DNA of 64,000 nt from Antedon mediterranea (Eukaryota; Echinodermata; Crinoidea; Comatulida; Antedonidae). A model generated the notes under the pieces. That model saw only the letters and a program-made list of their open reading frames with translations. It did not search any database and had not been told where the DNA came from. Of this stretch, positions 1 through 55,395 are shown one piece after another. The position numbers and the translations under genes are program-made. Each line of letters opens with the position of its first letter. Position 1 is the stretch's first letter. The stretch covers positions 12,700,932 to 12,764,931 of the forward strand of contig NC_092679.1 of assembly GCF_964355755.1 (NCBI RefSeq). Direction: 5' to 3'.

Positions 1-560
1 GATCCAAGCTATTTAAAATCGATTGTATTTTGGCTAGATTTGCAACATGCAATTTTAACAGGCAGGGGTGGTTGCAGAGGACTATTTTAAGGGTGTTGGC
101 CAAGAAGAGTCCAGCCGCAAAACCACATATTTGGCCCAAAGAGGAGCGATGCAAATTTTTTTTAATTACACCACTAGATGGCCGGAAATTAATTAATTAA
201 ATTTAATTAGCAATTATAATGAGTACAAATTATTTATTATCAAATCATAATTTTAAAAAGCTAAACAAAAAATAAGAGGCTGCTGCTATAAATATTTTGA
301 GCAAAAGGTTTAATTGTATTATTTTGAAATAAATGCTAAATAAGTCAGTAAAACCACAATTAGCAAAATTTATTTTCATTTATCCACTATAAACTGTATA
401 AACAGTGTTGCCTAAACAACACTCCAGAAAAAAATATTGAAATTTGCAGAAAGAAGGAATTGCCCAGGCAACACCCCCGCGTCTGCCCCTATTACCCACA
501 AATTGATTTTTATTGCTTCTAAACAAATTTTCAGTATAGATGTAAAAAAAACTAGAAATT
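1..560. repeat. Segment related to the flank upstream of FReD gene 4
   Basis: No gene is visible. Several stretches resemble 50590-51000 in the same order: a 'ggttgcagaggactattttaagg' type block (here 70-92, there near 50608-50630) and a 'gctaaacaaaaaataagagg' type block (here 261-280, there near 50862-50880) followed by a shared 'gatattgagcaaaatgtt'-like stretch. This suggests a diverged segmental duplication of the FReD locus flank. The exact limits are not resolved by eye. Confidence 0.5.
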
Positions 561-564
561 AATT

Positions 565-1760
565 TAACTTTGACGAATTATTGTTGGATCATTTTTATAA
601 TTTTATGGACATTAATATTTTTTAAACATGCACGTATGCGAACATACGATCGGAAAATGTTGATGTATGCCTTCCTATTATACGCTTATAGTGCTGAGTT
701 GTGTATATTATATGCCATATACATTAAGTACAGTATATACTGTATATCTATATACCGTGTAGCATTGGTGAAATTACGGACACACATCATGTTCTAATTT
801 TTTGGCATTGATAACATTATCAAAATAAACTTGTGGATAACAATATCGAAAGATAATGAATTGAGCAATAAAATATAACAATTGGAAGAAAATTTGGCAC
901 GTAGAAGCGTGGTGCGCGCTCTTTAAAATTTGTATAACTTTGACGAAAGAGATGAAAAAACTACTTTTTAACTTCAACTGGCCATATGATAACGTTACAA
1001 CATCCGATAGACCTAATTTTTAAATAAATTCATATCTACATTTTACAAGCTCTCATAATAAGTTATAAAAATCAAGGTCAACTTTATTTCAGAAGAGCTG
1101 CAAGGTATTCAAATATCCGTTGTAGGTGAAATTACGTAATCAGCGTTATTTACATTTTTAGACATGATGAAATCATCTAAATGGAAATGTTGGCAACTCA
1201 TGAGTAACATAATTGGTTGAGGTAGAATATATTAAAAATTAAAAGAAAATCGATCACAGATAAGCGAGATGCCCTCTGTTCAATATGATTGTCTAAGATG
1301 AAACGAAAAAAATCCAATTTTTTTATTTATGTGGCCAAATGATGACATAATTTTGTACGTCTAATATGTACATGATGCATTCATAACTCCTCCAACTCAT
1401 TGGCTTCCATAATCAGTTAAAAAAAATGGAGGTAAGCGTCCATTCTGAAGAGTTATATTTATATATTATAAGACCTTATTTTTTACCGTTTTTGACACTT
1501 TTGTGCAATTAATGTGCGCATTTTGTCATTTTTTAACCTGCTCGTATAGCGTTATTTAAAGTCGGAATAGACTCAAATTTGGTGAATGTAATTTTGAGCT
1601 TTTTAAATTTTTAACGCGCGATTTCACTATTAATTTTTATTTTATTTGCTATTCTTTTTACCCTTGACATGCAGTTTATGTATAGTGAATTTTATTGACA
1701 TGTGATTACAAGTAATATTGAGATATGATCGATAATGTGATTTCACAAAATTGCGTATAA
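565..1760 (-). repeat. Degenerate reverse-orientation relative of the Helitron-like family
   Basis: The stretch around 690-830 (tandem 'cagtatatactgtatatc', then a 'tgtagcattggtgaaattacgg' block, then 'gataacattatc') reads as a diverged reverse complement of the 3' part of the repeat at 22327-23902. A similar block is at 13380-13460. ORFs here (570-797, 774-977) are AT-rich noise. Boundaries are approximate. Confidence 0.4.
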
Positions 1761-1815
1761 ATTACGTCACAGATGAGTGAACTTTTTGAGATAATTGTTA
1801 CACAAAATAGTGTAA

Positions 1816-2015
1816 AGGTAAAGTAAAGGCGAGTCCCGTGTTCTCTGAACGTAGGGGAATGAGCTGTTAGGAGCTCATTGTACTAAGCCTCGGCATTATG
1901 TGGTAGGGTGGCCAGTTCCTTTCCACGCCGCCTTTTTTCTCGCTAGTATTTTCAACCAGGTACTCATTTTACAGCTGAGTGAACTGGGAGTTGTCGGGCA
2001 TTGAAAAAATTGACC
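1816..2015 (-). repeat. SINE-like dispersed repeat (unclassified)
   Basis: A less AT-rich patch with a compact block reading 'ggtactcattttacagctg' and a run around 1835-1870 with 'gagctgttaggagctcattg'. Its composition and phrasing resemble SINE bodies in marine invertebrates, but this is from memory and no second copy is in the window. The ORF on the minus strand (1896-2168) is not credible as a gene. Confidence 0.3.
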
Positions 2016-2169
2016 TTTGTGACATTGTTTTTGCAGCGGTATACTTTCAATAAGTTCAAACAAACAACAAAATAAGACAGACTCAAAAATACTTTTAATG
2101 CAGTGTTTAGTTGTTTCAAATACAATCACAAACTTTAAAAAGTATGCAAAACTCCATGAAGGTGCCATA

Positions 2170-2965
2170 CTATAAATACGTTATAAAATCAGTTTTTAAT
2201 CTAATAACAACAAGAAGCGTGTTAAGTAAAATTTCTGTGGAATTATTTAACATACCCATAAGTGCAAAGAAATAGCTTATTATAGAGGCTGTTCTTTTAT
2301 TCTAAACCAAATTTTTTTTTTAAATAGAAATGAATCCTTTGGTTATAAGTAACCCAAACATTACCAAAGTATAGTTTATATGAATTTCAAGTATAAAAGT
2401 ACAAGAAAAAAAAAATGTGGTACATGGTATTAAATGAATGAAAGTAACAAGCATTGAAGATATTTAACATGAAATTATCTTTATACATTTAAGATGTAGT
2501 AGAAAATCAATTTCTATACATACAAATCAAGTATTGAAGTCTGACATAAATGAGCAATTCATAATATTATTTTTAGGGAAAAACACTCTCAATATTATAT
2601 AATTATTTAAATGTGATTTAAAAATAAAACCCTCCATCATTAAAACATTCATGTAACTATGTTAAAACTGGTGTTCAAAATATAACTACCACTGTATGTG
2701 ATAAAAATAACTTTATGATTGTGTTTCCCAACAATAATATTAAACAAAAATTGCAAAATATTTTTTTTTAAATTGGAATTAAGACTTTGAATTAAGCTTG
2801 ATTAAAACAATAAAAACATATTAACAATAACAAAACTGAATGTCATTATTGTATTAAACATGTTAGCACTTAATTACTAACATTTTAAAGCTATCATTGC
2901 AACAATAAAAACTAAATTGTCTAAAGTCTGAATGCTCAAGCATTCAAAGAAACATAACAATTGAA
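2170..2965. other. AT-rich stretch with no recognisable feature
   Basis: Only AT-rich sequence with short homopolymers. It could hold 3' untranslated sequence of the minus-strand HECT-like gene, but nothing shows this directly. Confidence 0.4.
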
Positions 2966-4419
2966 TAAGATCAGCTATCAACAACATTTTTGGTTTGAGA
3001 AAAGAACCGTGTAAAGCTGGTACAAAATTTTAGCATACATGTTAATTCTTGGCATGACATCTCATTAATTGCTTCCCGTAACCACTCTTTCTCTTTATGA
3101 ACATTCTCCAGAGTATCCCACTCTACTATGTCTACCATCAACTCGGGTGTCATATCCACATGTTTCATTAGGAAAATAGAACACATTTCATTGCATCTTT
3201 CAATGAATGGCCTAAGTTCTGTATACTGAAGGCCATCTCTTATGCTTCAGTATCACTTTCTTTTGCATCAGATGTAGGACTAAGAGGTAATAAATAGTCA
3301 CTAATGTTACTGTTAGTTGTACTAACAATATCTCGGGAAGGCAACAAGTACACCCTCTTGTTTCCATATAAACGATGCAAAAGCTGTGCATTCCTTTCTT
3401 GATCATCAGTTAAACGTAGTTTAGTTAATCGTGAACCCATTCCAATCATAAACTCAAACCTAGAAGATATAATTTATAAAATGTAGATGACAAAATGTTA
3501 TGTTATTTACTGAAGGGAGGTGAAAGCTGTACACAAGGCATTCTTTTTTTTCTGACTTAAAACGCTCAGCACCTAAATATCAAGGTACAGTTCATTTATT
3601 ATTATAGTTATTTATTAAAAACATTCAGAATATGTACTGGTGTGTATATTGTAATGACCAATCAAAAATTATTCTGATCTTAACTGTACATCATATCATT
3701 GCACACAGGTTAACAAACTTCTTATGTTGGTACTATCACATTATATTGAAAGCTCAAAGTTAAGATTTTGCAAGGCATTTTGTTTAATCTTTTGAAGATG
3801 AAAAGGAAGCTGGAATATTGTTTCTATGAATCAGTCATGCTTGTAACCAATCAGAATCCCACTTTCGCTGAGCAAAAACTTATTCAAAATATTTTTTTGC
3901 AAATCAAACATTGCTTGTAAACTAAATTTAACATTTTAGTTTTCACTACAGTTACAGTACTTTATTTTAAATTTAAATAAATCAAAAGAACTTACTTATT
4001 TGGATCACTTTCAATTTCCAATATATCTGAAAACATATTTTCCAATTTTTTGTAAACTTCTTTTGCTGTCATGCATTGTTCTAGTTCAACATGATGATAA
4101 ACATGACCTGTAGTGTTAAAAGTAAATTTCATGATACATAATCAGTAAATATGATTTCTCATGTAGACAAAAACAAAAATAGGCCATGTTGAACCTTGAA
4201 AATGTTTATCAACTTTCAAAAGATTGAAAAAAAAATTCAATTTATTTTTTACTCAAGACACTGTTCTATACTTTTTATATATTTATTCATGAATTGAGGA
4301 ATTTTGTTTAAAAAAGTTCATTACCTAAATGTTTAGACTATAAATACATTTTTTTAAGTGAATGTGCCAAAAAAGTTTCTGAAACAAAAATTGGTAAGAA
4401 ACAATATTTTTAGTTGCGT

Positions 4420-4561
4420 GTACGCGACTCTATAGTTCACTATGTCGGTCGGTCGGTCTGTCTGTTGGTCCGGTATCACTATGCGTTTTAGCACGCGACT
4501 TATGGCTGTTGGCCTTGTTGGTTATCCGCTCTTGGCGGATAACCTCTTGTTATTGTCAGGA

Positions 4562-4592
<31 letters not shown>

Positions 4593-5742
4593 CTATGTTA
4601 TTCTTCTTTTTTTCCCAAAATTTTGTGTCACGTGTATCTCAAATTCTGATCAACATTACATCGTATAACTTTGTCAGAAGATTTACCTCTATGTGTAGAA
4701 GTGCAGGACAGCTCGTTTTTTTACTTTAGAGTCGCGCAGCGTAAGCTACGCACGATTTTATGAATTTCGCGTATTTAACATAGACTAAAAAGCAAAAGTC
4801 ATTTTGTAATGACACTTGGTGAACATTTAAGTCATATCAAGGGCAAACTTTCTATGGATTAAAAATGGCATGTTTGACATAAAGTTACACGCGCACGCGC
4901 GTTTAAAATTTCAAATTGCGAAAAATTCATTTCTAATCAACTTTCTACGCGTTTCAGGTCATTTTGAGCATTTCAAAAATTCCCACGCGTGCGCATATTT
5001 TTTACGCGCGCGTGCGCACGTAGCGCAAAAACATCTTTTTTTTGCTTGATTTTTGTTTTTTCAGCCTTTTCTAGTACATTTACCAATTTTCAATCAATTT
5101 CGACTTAAAATCACGTCATACGAGCACGTAGAATTGAACAATTTGCGCGCGTTTTTGATGAAAAAGTTCAAAAATTTGTGAAAATTATGCCTTTTTTTAA
5201 AAAGTCATAGATTCTAAACTCCGAGGTGAAAATATTTAAAATTTCAGATTCTGGAAGTAGATGAGTTGTTTTTCTCGAATCATGCATTGATATGGCTAAC
5301 CAGACATTGTGACGTCATCGTATGGCCACCCGAATATAAAATATAGGATTTTTTTCTCTTTCGTCATAGCTCGTCAATTTAATAGAGCGCATCTCTACTT
5401 ATCCTTATTCCATTTCACTCAATTTTTTTATATTGTCTAGATCAATCAATTACCTTTCGCATGATCCACCATTTTAAAAATTGTGATGACGTCATCATGT
5501 TCAAATGCGTCAATAACTTTGGTCACTTATTTTCACCTATTCTGCACTGTATGTAGTACGTATACAGTATATAGTGTTATACCGTATATACTTAGACGCG
5601 ACGCAACATAGAGAGCGCACTAACGTTTTTCAATGCCATAATCGTTTTATTTTTTTGCGCGCACTATTCTAACGTATGACGTGCACGTGGCTTTTGCACT
5701 GCGGATAACCTAACTCGTCCGTAGTGACGAGTTCAAATCTAG
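4420..5742 (+). mobile_element. Non-autonomous Helitron-like element, copy A
   Basis: The 3' end matches Helitron structure: an 8-bp stem (AACTCGTC at 5712-5719, GACGAGTT at 5726-5733) followed by a short spacer and CTAG at 5739-5742, with T as the next base. The same end is found in the copy at 22327-23902. A 29-T run lies at 4564-4592. Shared internal blocks include 'acgcgcgtttaaaatttc' and 'gtgacgtcatcgtatggcc'. The 5' end is not clear; 'TCTATAG' near 4429 is only a candidate. No Rep/helicase ORF is present. It lies in an intron of the minus-strand HECT-like gene. It has TGACGTCA palindromes at 5310-5317 and 5487-5494. Confidence 0.6.
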
Positions 5743-5850
5743 TTTTTATTAGTATTGAATAAAAAAACTGAAATACATAGTAGATTAGGATAATAATCAT
5801 AATAAATAACTAACCTTTTTCATCTAGTTTTCCATAGTAATTTGCCCTGG

Positions 5851-6378
5851 GGTGGATTGCTATAAAACAGTCTTAACTGATGGTCTTAACTCCCCGATTA
5901 AAGCCGGCTTTATCAGATAGACGGTCTTATTAAAGCCACTCCTGATAGACCATTGCTATAAAACAGTCTTGGATAAGACCGCGTAAAGTAACAAATTGAG
6001 GGCGTAGTTTGCGCGTAGAATACCAAATAAGGTAATGTTCGTCACGCTTGTTCAATTCACAATCATAACAGTACGTACATTTCTACGCGAGAAAATCCAT
6101 TCTAGGCCTATATAAGAATAAAATCACCGTTATTATTTGATTTAACACTTAAAACTCGTTTAATTGGTTGTCTTTGACGATAAATAATACGTAAAAGCAA
6201 CAAAAAGAGAGGTTTAAGACTGTTTTAAGACTCCTTCGAGTAGGCTTTAATTTTAAAGACCGTTTACAGGTCAGACCGCGGTATAGCAATGGTCTATAAA
6301 TAAAGACTACTTTCTACGTCACGAATTATAGCCGGCTAAGCGCTAAGACTGTTTATAGACCACTTATAACAATCCGCC
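5851..6378. mobile_element. 528-bp inverted-repeat MITE inside a coding exon
   Basis: Ends are GGTGGATTGCTATAA on the left and its near-perfect reverse complement (TTATAACAATCCGCC) on the right. The flanks carry CCTGG on both sides (5846-5850 and 6379-6383), a 5-bp target duplication. The interior is rich in inverted 'agtctta'/'taagact' motifs (for example 5867-5875 against 6343-6350). There is no ORF, so it is non-autonomous. Excision plus loss of one CCTGG restores an open reading frame in the minus-strand gene. Confidence 0.75.
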
Positions 6379-6834
6379 CCTGGGTATTTGATCGCTTTGT
6401 GATGTATCCAATAAAATGACTTCTTTTAAGTAGAAGTAATTTTGGTTTTGCCTAGAATTAGAGCATGAACGAGACCTTGAATTATCTTGTGTTCTTCTTC
6501 TGGTGGTATTTCTTGATCTTGTTGATGGTGTGGTAAATAAACTATTCATTTCACTATTTAGATCTTGGTGTGGTCTTCTTGTAGTATTTCTATGTGCTTG
6601 AGGTTGAGCATTTGGAGTTACATTCTGAATGATTGTTAAAAAATTGTCATTTGATAGTAGGGATTTGGTTAAATTATCTATATCAGTTGTTGAAAGCGAT
6701 GCCATGGTTTTATTTTTACAGTAGTTATCTGAAACAAAACAAATTATTATTAATAATTAAATTCATCAATACAGATACAGTACTGAATTAACTATCCTAC
6801 TACACAGTACTAGTGATGAAGCTCATATTTTGTT

Positions 6835-7236
6835 ACCTCCGCCAAGGAGGTTATGTTTTCACCCCTGTTGGGTGCGTGGGTGCGCGTGTGTGGGTGTGTT
6901 TGTGTGTGTGTCTGTGAACAGCCTGAAGGCCACAGTTTTTATCAGATTCTCACCAAATTTGGACACAATGATCTATGCCCCAAAAGCTCGGACGAAAAAA
7001 AAATATATAAAAATAAAAAAAACTCTCAGCGGGATTTGAACCAGGGACCTTAACTGTGAGAGGCTGGATACATAACCATTACACCAAACTCTCATCCACA
7101 ACTTTGTAGTGTGCAGTTAGCCTATTTACACTTAGAACTAATAAAAAAAATGTAAAAAAAAAACCATTTTCGGAGGGAATTTTATGTAGGGGAATTTTAC
7201 AGTAGGCGGAGGTTTGTACTCTCGGAGTACCCTCTA
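6835..7236 (-). mobile_element. tRNA-derived element with ACCTCCGCC/GGCGGAGGT ends
   Basis: The outer ends are ACCTCCGCC (6835-6843) and GGCGGAGGT (7205-7213), an inverted pair, with a trailing 'ctctcggagtaccctctag'. On the minus strand, 7022-7100 contains a tRNA-like Pol III promoter: an A-box-like TGGTGTAATGG and a consensus B box GGTTCAAATCC. The acceptor stem does not fold, so this is not a working tRNA. A (GT)n-like run lies at 6880-6915. The 'cctccgccaaggaggttatg' opening is one I recall from repeats in several aquatic animal genomes. Confidence 0.55.
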
Positions 7237-7319
7237 GTTTAGATATATTTTAAAGGATTATTCTACATTACAAGAAGAAGAATAGAATATCGCATTTTGT
7301 TATTTCAGTAGTAAAATAT

Positions 7320-7860
7320 TGATTGTTTTACCCAGGTCTAGTAGGGCTAGCTTACAACTAGCTGGGCTACTACTAGGCTAGGCCATACCCTGCAGGTTTG
7401 GCTAGCCTAACACCAGCCCTACTGCTGTTATCAACTCCAAATGTGTTAACTAACTATATCATGAATAGCAAATCTTGGATTTAGGCTTTAAGTAGGCCTC
7501 ATAAGTAGGCTCACGTCTGACCCTAAAATGTATAAACAAATAAATCCTTTTTTAAATTGATGACAGGTACAGTAAACGCTGACACTTAAGCTGCGTGATG
7601 TAGGCATTTAGCTAGTTTATGCGGTTTGCCTAGTTAGGCCTAGGCGGCACCTATATAATAGGCCTATGTATGCCTCTTGGCCTACTAGTAGACTAGCTAG
7701 CTAGGCTAGCTAGGTCCTGTACTGTTGTAGCTGTACTAGGCTAGGCTAGGCCTAGTAGGCCCTATACTGGTTTACAGCTCTAAGGAATGGGCTACTTTAC
7801 ATACTGTACTGTGTAGGCCTGCCTACCTCAACAATAGGATGACACTGACAGTTGACTATA
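7320..7860. repeat. CTAG/GGCCTA-rich low-complexity patch
   Basis: Dense overlapping tetramers (ctag, taggcc, gctagc), for example at 7690-7770. Similar but smaller patches occur at 36405-36600, 46290-46460, 46690-46730 and 56590-56650. No ORF or RNA is recognised. It lies upstream of the HECT-like gene and could include its promoter, but nothing specific is visible. Confidence 0.5.
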
Positions 7861-8099
7861 GTATAGATAGCCCTAATCAACGATTAAAAGAAGTATGGGT
7901 ATGAATTCCAGATTCCATCCAAACATGTGGTGCATGCTCGTCTCACTTGCTGAATACCATGAGGGTGCGTAGAGGTTATTCGCAGGCGGTGGCAGGCCGC
8001 CGGTCATCTAGCCATTCTAGACGATAAACCCCTTTCGAGAAATGGTATGGTCTTCACGCTTGATTAGAGATCTCTAACCAAGCGTTACAAGTGTACATT

Positions 8100-8300
8100 C
8101 CTTGTTACAACTACATTTTAAAAGTGTACAACTACATTTTAAAAGTGTACAACTACATTTTACAAATGTACAACTACGTTTTACAATTACAAACATGCAT
8201 TTTACAAATACACACACATTTTTAGGTTTACAAATACATTTTGCAATTACACACACACACATTTTAAATGTACACATACATTTTTCAGCTACACACTTTT
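8100..8300. repeat. Degenerate ~21-bp minisatellite
   Basis: Repeats of a 'gtacaactacattttaaaa' type unit: three near-perfect units at 8105-8170, then progressively diverged 'tacaaatacattttgc' units to about 8300, with an (ac)n run near 8250. ORFs on both strands are translations of the repeat and not genes. Confidence 0.7.
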
Positions 8301-8698
8301 GCTGCTTATGGCGCCCCATACGACACAACCAGACATACATGTAATTACAATAAAGTACGAAAATTTTTTAAAATGGGTGTAAGATAAGGTGCGAGATAAA
8401 TTCCAGTCAAAGTATATTGTGTGAAGGAGGATAAATGGACTGGTAAAATGTGAAAGTTAAAATTATTTTACTTAGCGTGGTAATCTGTTGACAGCATGAG
8501 CTGAAGAGGATGAGATGCTCACACTGTCAAAGATGATTGCGAGGGCGCCCTGCAATCACGTGATTATTTATTCGATCTGTCAATTAATCAATCAATTAAT
8601 CGAGGATAGAAATATGATTTAACTAAATAATTAGATTTTGTATTTCAATTCTGGTCATTAAATAATTTGGGATGTCAAAACTGTGGTTGTCGAGGAGG

Positions 8699-22326: not shown

Positions 22327-23902
22327 TTAGTTATCCGTGTAACTGTCCTGTTTCATCATCTTTTTTTTTTTTTTTTTTCTGTATTCTTCTTTCTTTCTGT
22401 CATTTTTGTGTCTCGCGTAACTCAAAAACGTGTAAACATAACATTTCATAACTTTGTCAACATGTGGGCATTTACGTGAAATTGTGCACCTCCTATTTTT
22501 GAATGACGTCAGAGTTGCGCAACATGACTTACGCGCGTTTTTCCGAATTTCGCGTATTTAACATAGATCGAAAACCATATAACAATTTAAATTGAAACTG
22601 AAAAAAAGTTTAAGTTATATCTTGCGCTAACTGACTATGGGGAAAAAATGGCATGTTTCACACAAAGTTACGCGCGCACGCGCGTTTAAAATTTCAAATT
22701 GCGAAAAATCAATTTCTAATCAACTTTCTACGCGTTTCATGTCATTTTAAGCATGTAAAAAATTCCCATGCGCGCGCTTTTTTTTACGCGCGCGGTGCGA
22801 ACGTAGCGTTGAAAACAATTTTTCTCTCGTGATTTATGTTTTCAAGCCTTTTATAGTAATTTTACCAACTTTGAAACAATTTCGACTTCAAATTACGTCA
22901 TACGGGCACGTCGAATTGGATAATTTTTGTGCGTTTTTGAGGAAAAAGTTCAAAAATTTGTCAAAATTATACCTTTTTTTAAACAATCATAGATTCTAAA
23001 CTACGAGGTGAACTTTGTTTAAATTACATATCCAGGAAGATGATAAGTTGTAGATAAGGAATCATGCATTGATATGGCAAACCGGACATTGTGACGTCAT
23101 CGTATGGCCACGCGAATATAAAATATAGGATTTTTGTATCTTTCGTCATACCGCATCTCATTTAATAGAGCGCCTCTCCACTTATCCGTATTCCATTTTA
23201 ACCCAGACTTTGAAATTTTCTAGGTCAATCAACTATCTTACGCAGGAGTAAAAATTTTTTTTATTTTTATGACGTCATCATGTCTAAAAATGTAAATAAC
23301 GTGGGTCACTTATATTTATCTTTACAGTAAATTTTAATCTGTTATAGCTCATCAGAATAAAATGTGATAATCACGATTAAAACGTTTTCTGGAAGCTATT
23401 GGATTGTAGATACGAATTCATGTAAACATTTTGCCAATCGGATGTTGTGACGTCATCATATGGCCAGTTGAATAAAAAAAGACGTATTTTCATATTTTGC
23501 CTAATAGTTCATCACATTTAAAAGGGTGCGCATCTATATTTTACGTATTCAAATTTCTTCTACACGTTAATATGTTGTTCCTGAGATAATTTCCTTCTGA
23601 AATTGCTATCTAAGTGTTTCATTTTGATACCGTCGCCATGTTAAAAATTGGAATAAATGGCGGGTCCCGTAATTTCACCTATTCTACACTGTATGTAATA
23701 TGTATACAGATTATACTGTTTGCATGTATATACTATGACACAAAATTGACAGAATTCAGCACTAACAGCATATCATATTCTTCAGTTCTTGTCATAATGC
23801 CATAATCTTTATCTGTGTGCAATATTCCAATGTATGACGTGCACGTGGCGTTTGTCGTGGTGCGGATAACTAACTCGTCAATGTGACGAGTTTCATGTCT
23901 AG
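22327..23902 (+). mobile_element. Non-autonomous Helitron-like element, copy B
   Basis: Parallel to copy A (4420-5742) from a 'ttatccg' block and an 18-T run (22361-22378) through 'gcgcgtttaaaatttcaaat' to the end. The 3' terminus has stem AACTCGTC (23872-23879) and GACGAGTT (23885-23892), then CTAG (23899-23902) followed by T. It is longer than copy A in its distal part, with an extra CRE-like block. TGACGTCA occurs at 22504, 23092, 23270 and 23448. No protein is encoded. Confidence 0.6.
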
Positions 23903-52413: not shown

Positions 52414-55395
52414 ATGCTGATAAGATATTTCCTACTGTCACTGATGGTAGCTCTGGCATTCTCAGATAGCTATGTTGTAGATACTGAAGAACAGGATGGT
52501 GTTCCTCAATTACTGGTTGTTATCAAAAATGGATGTGGTGAAGAGAAAGAAAGAAAAGGTAAAAATAATATATTTCTTCCGTTAAACTGGCTAAAATAAT
52601 GTGGTAAAGCTGTAGTTTTTTTTAACTTGGTTGTTTTTTCAATTGATATTTATGTTTAGAAACCTAATATTTGCATACATTTTTATAATTTTTTTAAGCA
52701 ATACAGACTTCCAGTGATTATAGTTAACTTACTATAGTTGCCTTTGCCAATTAGATCCTCACTGTCCTTTTTTAGTTTCTCCATAATGAGAACTACACTT
52801 TCAATTTGAAACAAATGTTTAAGCCATAGAACAAAATCAGTGCTCAGAGTTAAGCTGTGAAGAAAAATTGTACACACTGCACCCTATATTATTTATAGGC
52901 CTGCTATCTGTCATAAAAAGCAAACATTTTGTACAAAAAGCTGACCAATGATTGGTATCACTGAATAAAACTCACTGTTGTGGAACCAATGCCATGTGAT
53001 CCAATATATATTGGTGAGTTTTATATAGTTGCATCTATGGTGAAATTATGTATTATAGAAATTAAAAAGCAACTTTTTCTTCAACTTGTAAACATATGTA
53101 TACTGCCCCTCAAAAGGCAATCTTTAATATACATTTTTTCAAGGTTATCCACGAGACTGCAGTGACTTACTTGAACGCAACAGTGCAGCAACAAGTGGGG
53201 CTTACATGATCAATATTCATGATGGAGGTGAACCATTCCGTGTTTACTGCGATATGGAGACTGATGGAGGCGGATGGACAGTAAGGCTTTTTATTATAAT
53301 GTTGGTAATTCTACAAAAAATGTTGCCCAATTATGAATGAGCTGAAATGAAGATAATACGATAAAAATAATAAAACCAAAATATTATAATTTTGCCTTAA
53401 ATTATGGGAACTCCTAATAGTTTTCCCCAATTGTATGAGCATTAAAACACATTGCAGTGGCCTTTTGTTAATTTTCAAAAGGTCTTTTGTTTCATGATGC
53501 ACTAGGCAAATACAGAAAATCATTCTGCACATGCGCACATATTGTGCAGAATGATTTTCTGTAGTTTACAGATGAATTTATTATTCACTATACGGACACA
53601 TATCAAGACTACTGAAATTTAGAAAATTGAGAACTCCGCTTGACTGGAGGAACTGAACAATGATATAAGAAAGTCTAGTTTGAACAAAAGACACATTTTA
53701 GCAACACATTTCTTTTACCTGTAGTAATAGTAAATGTATATCTTGATCTTCCAAAATTCTTGCAACAACAAAATGTCAACTTGTAGGTACGTCTCTACAA
53801 ATGTACTCGAAGAAATTCAACCATTATGAATATGACTTTAATTGTCACAGATCAAAAACTCACTAATTTATTTCAATTATATTTGTAAAGGTTTTTCAAA
53901 GACGAGAAGATGGATCCATGAATTTCTATAGAAATTGGGTAGCATACAAGGCAGGGTTTGGGAACTTTAATAGTGAGCATTGGCTTGGTAATGATAACAT
54001 TCATCGCCTTACATCTGATGGTCACTTTGAATTAAGAGTGGACATGTCCACCTTTGAGGGAGAATCTGCCTATGCTCACTACGACAACTTCCGAATAGGT
54101 GATGAGGAAAGTAACTACAAACTGATATGTGGTAACTACAGTGGTAATGCAGGTAAGGATTTGTTTACACACGTTTGGCTCTTCTACAGTACATGCTGTT
54201 TCAATAACAATTTAAATATTGTAATGTCAGTATTATGTCTGTCTGGTAATAGTATTTCTCTGATACTTCTAAATAATAGTAGAGCACCACCTATGTTGAA
54301 ATAAAACTGTCTCACAAAATCATGTTTCATTTTGATGACGTCATCATGTTAAAAGTTGGAATAAATGGCAGGTCCTGTATTTTTACCTATGCTACACTGT
54401 ATGTACAGTAGTATGGATACAGTATATAGTGTATACCTGTATAATTTGTATCATCACTAACTTTCTGCTGAATTAATGGCATGTTCTACAGAAAAAATTA
54501 AAAATGCAAAAAATCAATTTCCATGCGTTTCATGTCATTTTAAGAATGTATAAATTCCCATGTGCGTACAAATGTTTACGCGCGTGGTGTGCATAGTGTT
54601 ATAAAAATAATTGTTTGCATGAATTACATTTTTCCAGTACATTTAAAAGTAACACATAATAATGCCAACTTTAAGTCAATGGCTACCAGATGTCTCTGTG
54701 AGACGGTTATTTGAACCAGTACCAGTACCAGTGTTTCTAGTAATTTTACCAAATTTGAAACCATTTTGACTTAAAATCATGTCAAACGAACATGTCAAAT
54801 TAGACAATTTGTGCGCGTTTTTAATGAAAGAGTTAAACAATTTGTCAAAATTATTTTTTTTTTAACAGTCATACTTCCTAAAATAAACGCTGAAATTAAT
54901 TTTTATTATATATTCTGGAAGGTGATGAGTTATAGATATCGGATCATGCATTAATATGGCTAACTGAACATTGTGATATCATCATATGACGTAATTACTT
55001 TTCACATTCGCTTATAAAGATTTCATTAGTATTCAATCCAATGATATTAAAACATTTTGCCTTATGGAAAATTGATATAATAGATTGCATTGATTGCGTG
55101 ATATTCAAATATTATTATTTTTATTTTAGGTGATTCATTGACACTTCAAAACAATCACCAGTTTTCGACGTTCGACCAAGATCATGACACGTCTGGCTCA
55201 TCCTGTTGTGTGTTATACAAGGGAGCCTGGTGGTATGAACATTGTCATGATTCAAATCTGAATGGATTGTACTTGGGTGGTACAACTGATCAGTATGCAA
55301 AAGGTGTGGTGTGGAAAGATTGGAAAGATTACTACTATTCCTTGAAAACGACTGAGATGAAAATACGTGGAATTATTACAACAGTAAAAGGTTAA
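52414..55395 (+). CDS. Secreted fibrinogen-related (FReD) lectin gene 4, intact
   Basis: Exons 52414-52558, 53144-53280, 53891-54152 and 55130-55395; 810 coding nt, 269 residues, phases 1, 0, 1. Signal peptide MLIRYFLLSLMVALAFS, then an acidic linker with one Cys (IKNGCGEE). The FReD runs from about 50: [60 protein letters not shown] with an extra Cys, FDQDHD, WWYEHCHDSNLNG and TTEMKIRG. The C-terminus is extended (IITTVKG) because the stop used by genes 1-3 is lost. The start is the ATG at 52414, not the GTG-begun longer reading. AATAAA is at 55483. Introns 2 and 3 are close copies of those in gene 1. Likely an extracellular glycan-binding defence lectin by family. A minus-strand ORF across exon 4 is an antisense artefact. 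Confidence 0.87.
53512..53562. repeat. 51-bp perfect hairpin in FReD 4 intron 2
   Basis: Arms of 20 bp (ACAGAAAATCATTCTGCACA and its exact reverse complement) with an 11-base loop. Gene 1 has a degenerate version at 29111-29168. It may be a tiny MITE remnant or a structured RNA. Confidence 0.75.
54330..54980 (+). repeat. Helitron-like family fragment in FReD 4 intron 3
   Basis: Blocks 'gatgacgtcatcatgtt' (TGACGTCA at 54336), 'cctatgctacactgtatg', 'gcgtttcatgtcatttt' and 'aaatttgaaaccattttgac' match copies A and B and the fragment in gene 1. No 3' CTAG hairpin remains. Confidence 0.6.

Follow-up and report, generated by a model that had tools for sequence, protein, structure and literature searches.

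What kind of gene was struck at a locus of Antedon mediterranea where a MITE cuts a coding exon? The locus lies in a window of 64,000 nucleotides, the whole stretch of DNA that was analysed (NC_092679.1, positions 12,700,932 to 12,764,931), and the original prediction saw in it a gene with a recent or polymorphic knock-out. The reading preferred here, with a probability of about 96%, is nested transposition: the MITE sits within a passenger exon of an IS3EU-type transposon. No evidence against nesting was found in the comparisons of copies, termini and target-site duplications (TSDs). The features of the locus are collected in Table 1.

Table 1. Features of the locus, in window coordinates, with the comparison on which each is based.
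Feature	Position	Strand	Basis
MITE core, 528 bp, non-autonomous PIF/Harbinger (NuwaI-like)	5851-6378	+	Genome-wide copies, termini, flanks
Left CCTGG flank of the MITE	5846-5850		Target-site duplication CTG at 5847-5849; ten paralogous empty sites
Right CCTGG flank of the MITE	6379-6383		CTG at 6380-6382
Passenger exon 1, 5' part, from ATG at 6705, cut by the MITE	6384-6705	-	Same protein in four other genomic copies
3' part of passenger exon 1, up to splice donor GATGAAAAAG/GTTAGT	5815-5850	-	Exon end at 5815; MITE-free copies
Passenger exon 2, 112 nt	3996-4107	-	Equivalent exon in MITE-free copies
Passenger exon 3 including stop codon, 220 nt	3240-3459	-	MITE-free copies
HECT domain remnant	3004-3248	-	Comparison with full-length copies
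Second insertion, 1219 bp, in passenger intron, Helitron-like ends	4520-5738		Other copies without insert at the site
IS3EU-like transposon hosting the MITE, window part	1-8320		Homology to copies, termini, TSD
Right-hand terminal inverted repeat of the IS3EU-like host, with GGCGCCCCATA at its end	7987-8320	-	Comparison of copies
6-bp target duplication CGACAC	8321-8326		Same as the 6 bp preceding the left end

The interrupted exon and its empty site

The minus-strand reading frame that starts at the ATG at 6705 reads ...SQSDQIPRGGLL and terminates within the MITE, which brings in a stop four codons past IPR. The terminal inverted repeats (TIRs) of the MITE are GGTGGATTGCTATAA and GGCGGATTGTTATAA, and its bounds become 5850-6379 when the 3-bp CTG target duplication is included. 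When the flanks are joined with a single CCTGG, a 19-nt junction is formed, AAATACCCAGGGCAAATTA, which each of the ten paralogues without the MITE contains; across the entire 80 nt compared, four of them do not differ from the joined window flanks. The empty site at the locus, as given by the paralogues, is C-CTG-G. The prediction that the MITE lies inside a coding exon, and that its excision with one CCTGG restores both the frame and the splice donor, is borne out to the base by the junction in these ten genomic copies.

Phase is maintained from the splice donor into the exons at 4107-3996 and 3459-3240. The predicted gene model also held: in two MITE-free copies, on C8 and C1, the three exons form a 690-nt CDS with no internal stop, encoding the entire 229-aa product. 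Ten further copies of the exon-1 protein, with 86-100% identity, are spread over seven chromosomes. No credible function for the 229-aa product was found among solved structures. A retroviral Gag origin was rejected: the weak Pfam match to Gag_p24 (E = 0.0099) is sub-threshold and comes without retroviral features.

Private substitutions are few, with 2 in the 528 bp of the MITE and, in the host IS3EU copy, 1 in 453 bp and 1 in 1171 bp. These counts agree with the predicted recency of the MITE insertion, and we infer from them that the MITE and the host copy are both recent. Since the MITE is nested and absent from the other ten copies, it postdates the host copy, or else the immediate source of that copy. 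A polymorphic state of the MITE among individuals is possible.

The host transposon and its truncated passenger

Comparison with three copies of exon 1 reveals homology from the left of the window up to 8320, where it stops abruptly. The host element spans C10:12697272-12709251 (window -3660 to 8320, the left end being outside the window), about 11,980 bp including inserts. The inverted-repeat ends TATGGGGCGCC and GGCGCCCCATA are present at both ends of the window copy and of a copy on C11, and they follow the pattern TAYGG..CCRTA. Moreover, the 6-bp TSDs are perfect in both: CGACAC/CGACAC in the window copy and TCTAAG/TCTAAG in the C11 copy, where the TIRs are ~355 bp long. The TIR at 7987-8320 consists mostly of short tandem repeats, and the repeat number differs between the two ends of the element.

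The strand opposite the passenger encodes an integrase-like transposase (rva_4, PF24764; E = 1.8e-69 in the C11 copy), and an rva_4 gene is located within 6-9 kb of 10 of the 11 exon-1 copies. A frameshift and an internal deletion have disrupted the transposase gene of the window copy. The IS3EU-type label of the host element is given by its termini and its TSD, and its transposase has an integrase-like core. IS3EU is characterised by TAYGG..CCRTA termini, 6-bp TSDs and a transposase of IS3/integrase-like type, and TA..TA termini, a 6-bp TSD, TIRs and an integrase-like DDE transposase are shared with the IS3EU/GingerRoot superfamily (PMC10045372, PMC12730594). Unlike that superfamily, the element has a HECT-type passenger and ~355-bp TIRs with internal short tandem repeats. 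On sequence grounds, the target of the MITE is the passenger (second) gene of a multi-copy IS3EU-type DNA transposon.

The passenger intron also carries a second insertion (4520-5738), with a terminal hairpin, CTAG and inverted GGTTATCCGC motifs close to both ends. It resembles a Helitron2/Helentron-type element, and relatives are found at 22361-23316, at 54329-54988 and at a different site in the C8 IS3EU copy.

Full-length copies of the passenger are predicted to encode a HECT-type ubiquitin ligase. At C3:10873029-10874384, a 452-aa ORF/exon matches the HECT domain (PF00632, E = 2.9e-10) and aligns along its length with that of E6AP, catalytic cysteine included: the putative catalytic Cys in SSVCTSTLFLP aligns to TCFNVLLLP of E6AP. 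As in HECT E3 ubiquitin ligases of the E6AP/UBE3A type, a cysteine occupies the catalytic position; unlike in these ligases, the protein is encoded within a transposon, and the window subfamily lacks most of the domain. Compared with the full-length copy, the window passenger misses ~1.39 kb on the 5' side of the remnant (between 3248 and 3238) and, on the 3' side, 191 bp at ~3005, which hold the catalytic C-lobe; hence, the catalytic lobe is gone. A search for the C-lobe in the window passenger found none, just profile positions 202-243 being left, below the cut-off. The truncation is common to most passenger copies, and C3:10873029 and C3:26471837 retain HECT parts that the window copy lacks. 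With the HECT domain truncated and the transposase broken, the MITE hit a gene that was already without its enzymatic part, in a non-autonomous transposon.

Among the alternatives, the one that survives best, itself unlikely, is exonisation of the MITE or its removal by splicing, with a working protein persisting from the window copy. The MITE lies within the exon, with its stop only a few codons past IPR, and the product would be without the HECT catalytic lobe regardless. An ordinary host gene with a recent or polymorphic MITE knock-out, as originally predicted, is very improbable. Frame, splice donor and phases do fit it exactly, and the MITE is young, but the entire gene is enclosed by the TIRs of a transposon, itself bounded by a 6-bp TSD, and nine of the ten other copies on seven chromosomes have an rva_4 transposase 6-9 kb away. 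An ordinary host gene is ruled out by this copy number and by the TIR/TSD boundaries. As the exon belongs to a multi-copy mobile element, no host gene knock-out is shown: the "gene knock-out" is to be read as one transposon copy struck by another. Until the copy number has been checked, exact restorability of an exon does not count as evidence for the knock-out of a host gene.

In the nested transposition, an IS3EU-type transposon, in which the transposase gene and the passenger converge, inserted at CGACAC. Later, the 528-bp non-autonomous PIF/Harbinger element entered CCTGG in passenger exon 1, duplicating CTG; a DDE_Tnp_4 transposase like that of C3:11193645-11196510 probably moved it in trans. 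The in-frame stop destroys the protein in one already non-autonomous copy only, presumably without any phenotype. A single passenger copy may have a regulatory or dominant role.

HECT genes beside IS3EU-type transposases across the genome

Genome-wide, 20 of the 46 HECT loci are located within 10 kb of an rva_4 (IS3EU-type) transposase, versus 0.14 expected; in 19 of the 20, the two genes converge (tail-to-tail). HECT loci with at least three exon matches, which are host-gene-like, are all more than 400 kb away from any rva_4 match. The transposases of the other HECT-associated families share only ~50% amino-acid identity with that of the window family; hence, the association is not that of one recent family. 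Examples of tail-to-tail loci are C3:10867856-10873517, C1:1865813-1867901 and C8:19944197-19946144.

It is quite probable that several IS3EU-type families, diverged to this degree, stably carry a tail-to-tail HECT passenger, perhaps countering host control, and that the window element is a degenerate, MITE-hit member. Fungal IS3EU elements have TET/JBP and alpha-kinase passengers, the alpha-kinase being opposite in orientation to the transposase (PMC12730594); judged by this analogy, the HECT gene may act against host control. The linkage of HECT and IS3EU across one genome is reminiscent of these fungal TET/JBP and kinase genes carried by transposons, and it suggests ubiquitin ligases as a further class of genes that transposons recruit. 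Among the papers of the library searched, none names both IS3EU and HECT, and broader literature searches for HECT in transposons or for IS3EU found nothing relevant. The MITE-in-IS3EU case is ordinary in kind; the HECT passengers are a worthwhile lead.

That the passenger is a domesticated host gene copied by transposons, with the window locus as the original, is hardly credible: introns and a conserved ORF would suit such a gene, but a TSD flanks the window copy itself, HECT parts kept at C3:10873029 and C3:26471837 are missing from it, and the diverged IS3EU-type families (~50% transposase identity) have an adjacent HECT gene of their own.

The MITE family and its candidate partner

In the search of the same genome, more than 200 candidates yielded at least 40 scored full-length copies of the MITE, almost all of them with 95-99% identity. 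The exact terminal 16-mers of the MITE were found 216 times (107 + 109), against 2 (0 + 2) for the reversed control pattern; together with the full-length copies, these counts exclude chance. CWG is present on both sides of 19 of the 30 MITE copies with flanks and is identical in 13 of the 19, and identical non-CWG triplets flank five more of the 30.

A candidate partner (L069) of 2866 bp, CTG-flanked, is situated at C3:11193645-11196510 between inverted copies of the MITE terminus. It encodes a DDE_Tnp_4 protein (E = 2.1e-38; gene at C3:11195272-11195718) and a Myb/SANT protein (1.5e-15), and it has 95% identity to one end of the MITE over 186 bp and 78% identity to the other over 249 bp. Because of the MITE termini, CTG flanks, common ends and these two proteins, the most fitting reading of the MITE is a PIF/Harbinger derivative with an internal deletion, and the C3 element is a plausible autonomous partner. 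Since identity to the MITE is no more than 78% at the left end of this element, it is perhaps a relative and not the direct parent.

CWG target duplications mark the NuwaI group of PHIS transposons; the MITE is like NuwaI in these duplications, and its partner in the two ORFs for a DDE_Tnp_4 transposase and a Myb/SANT protein (PMC4482050). The NuwaI-like label rests on both traits. A difference from NuwaI is that the W does not agree between the left and right flanks in about one third of the MITE copies flanked by CWG. In six of the 19, one flank is CAG and the opposite one CTG (L029, L034, L038, L050, L051 and L054). A plain 3-bp target duplication is expected to be identical on both sides; repair of the middle base or carried-over flanking bases may explain the mismatch.

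At C6:27490575-27491662, about ten tandem copies of a 96-bp unit from the interior of the MITE lie beside a full MITE. This array is possibly a MITE-born satellite seed.
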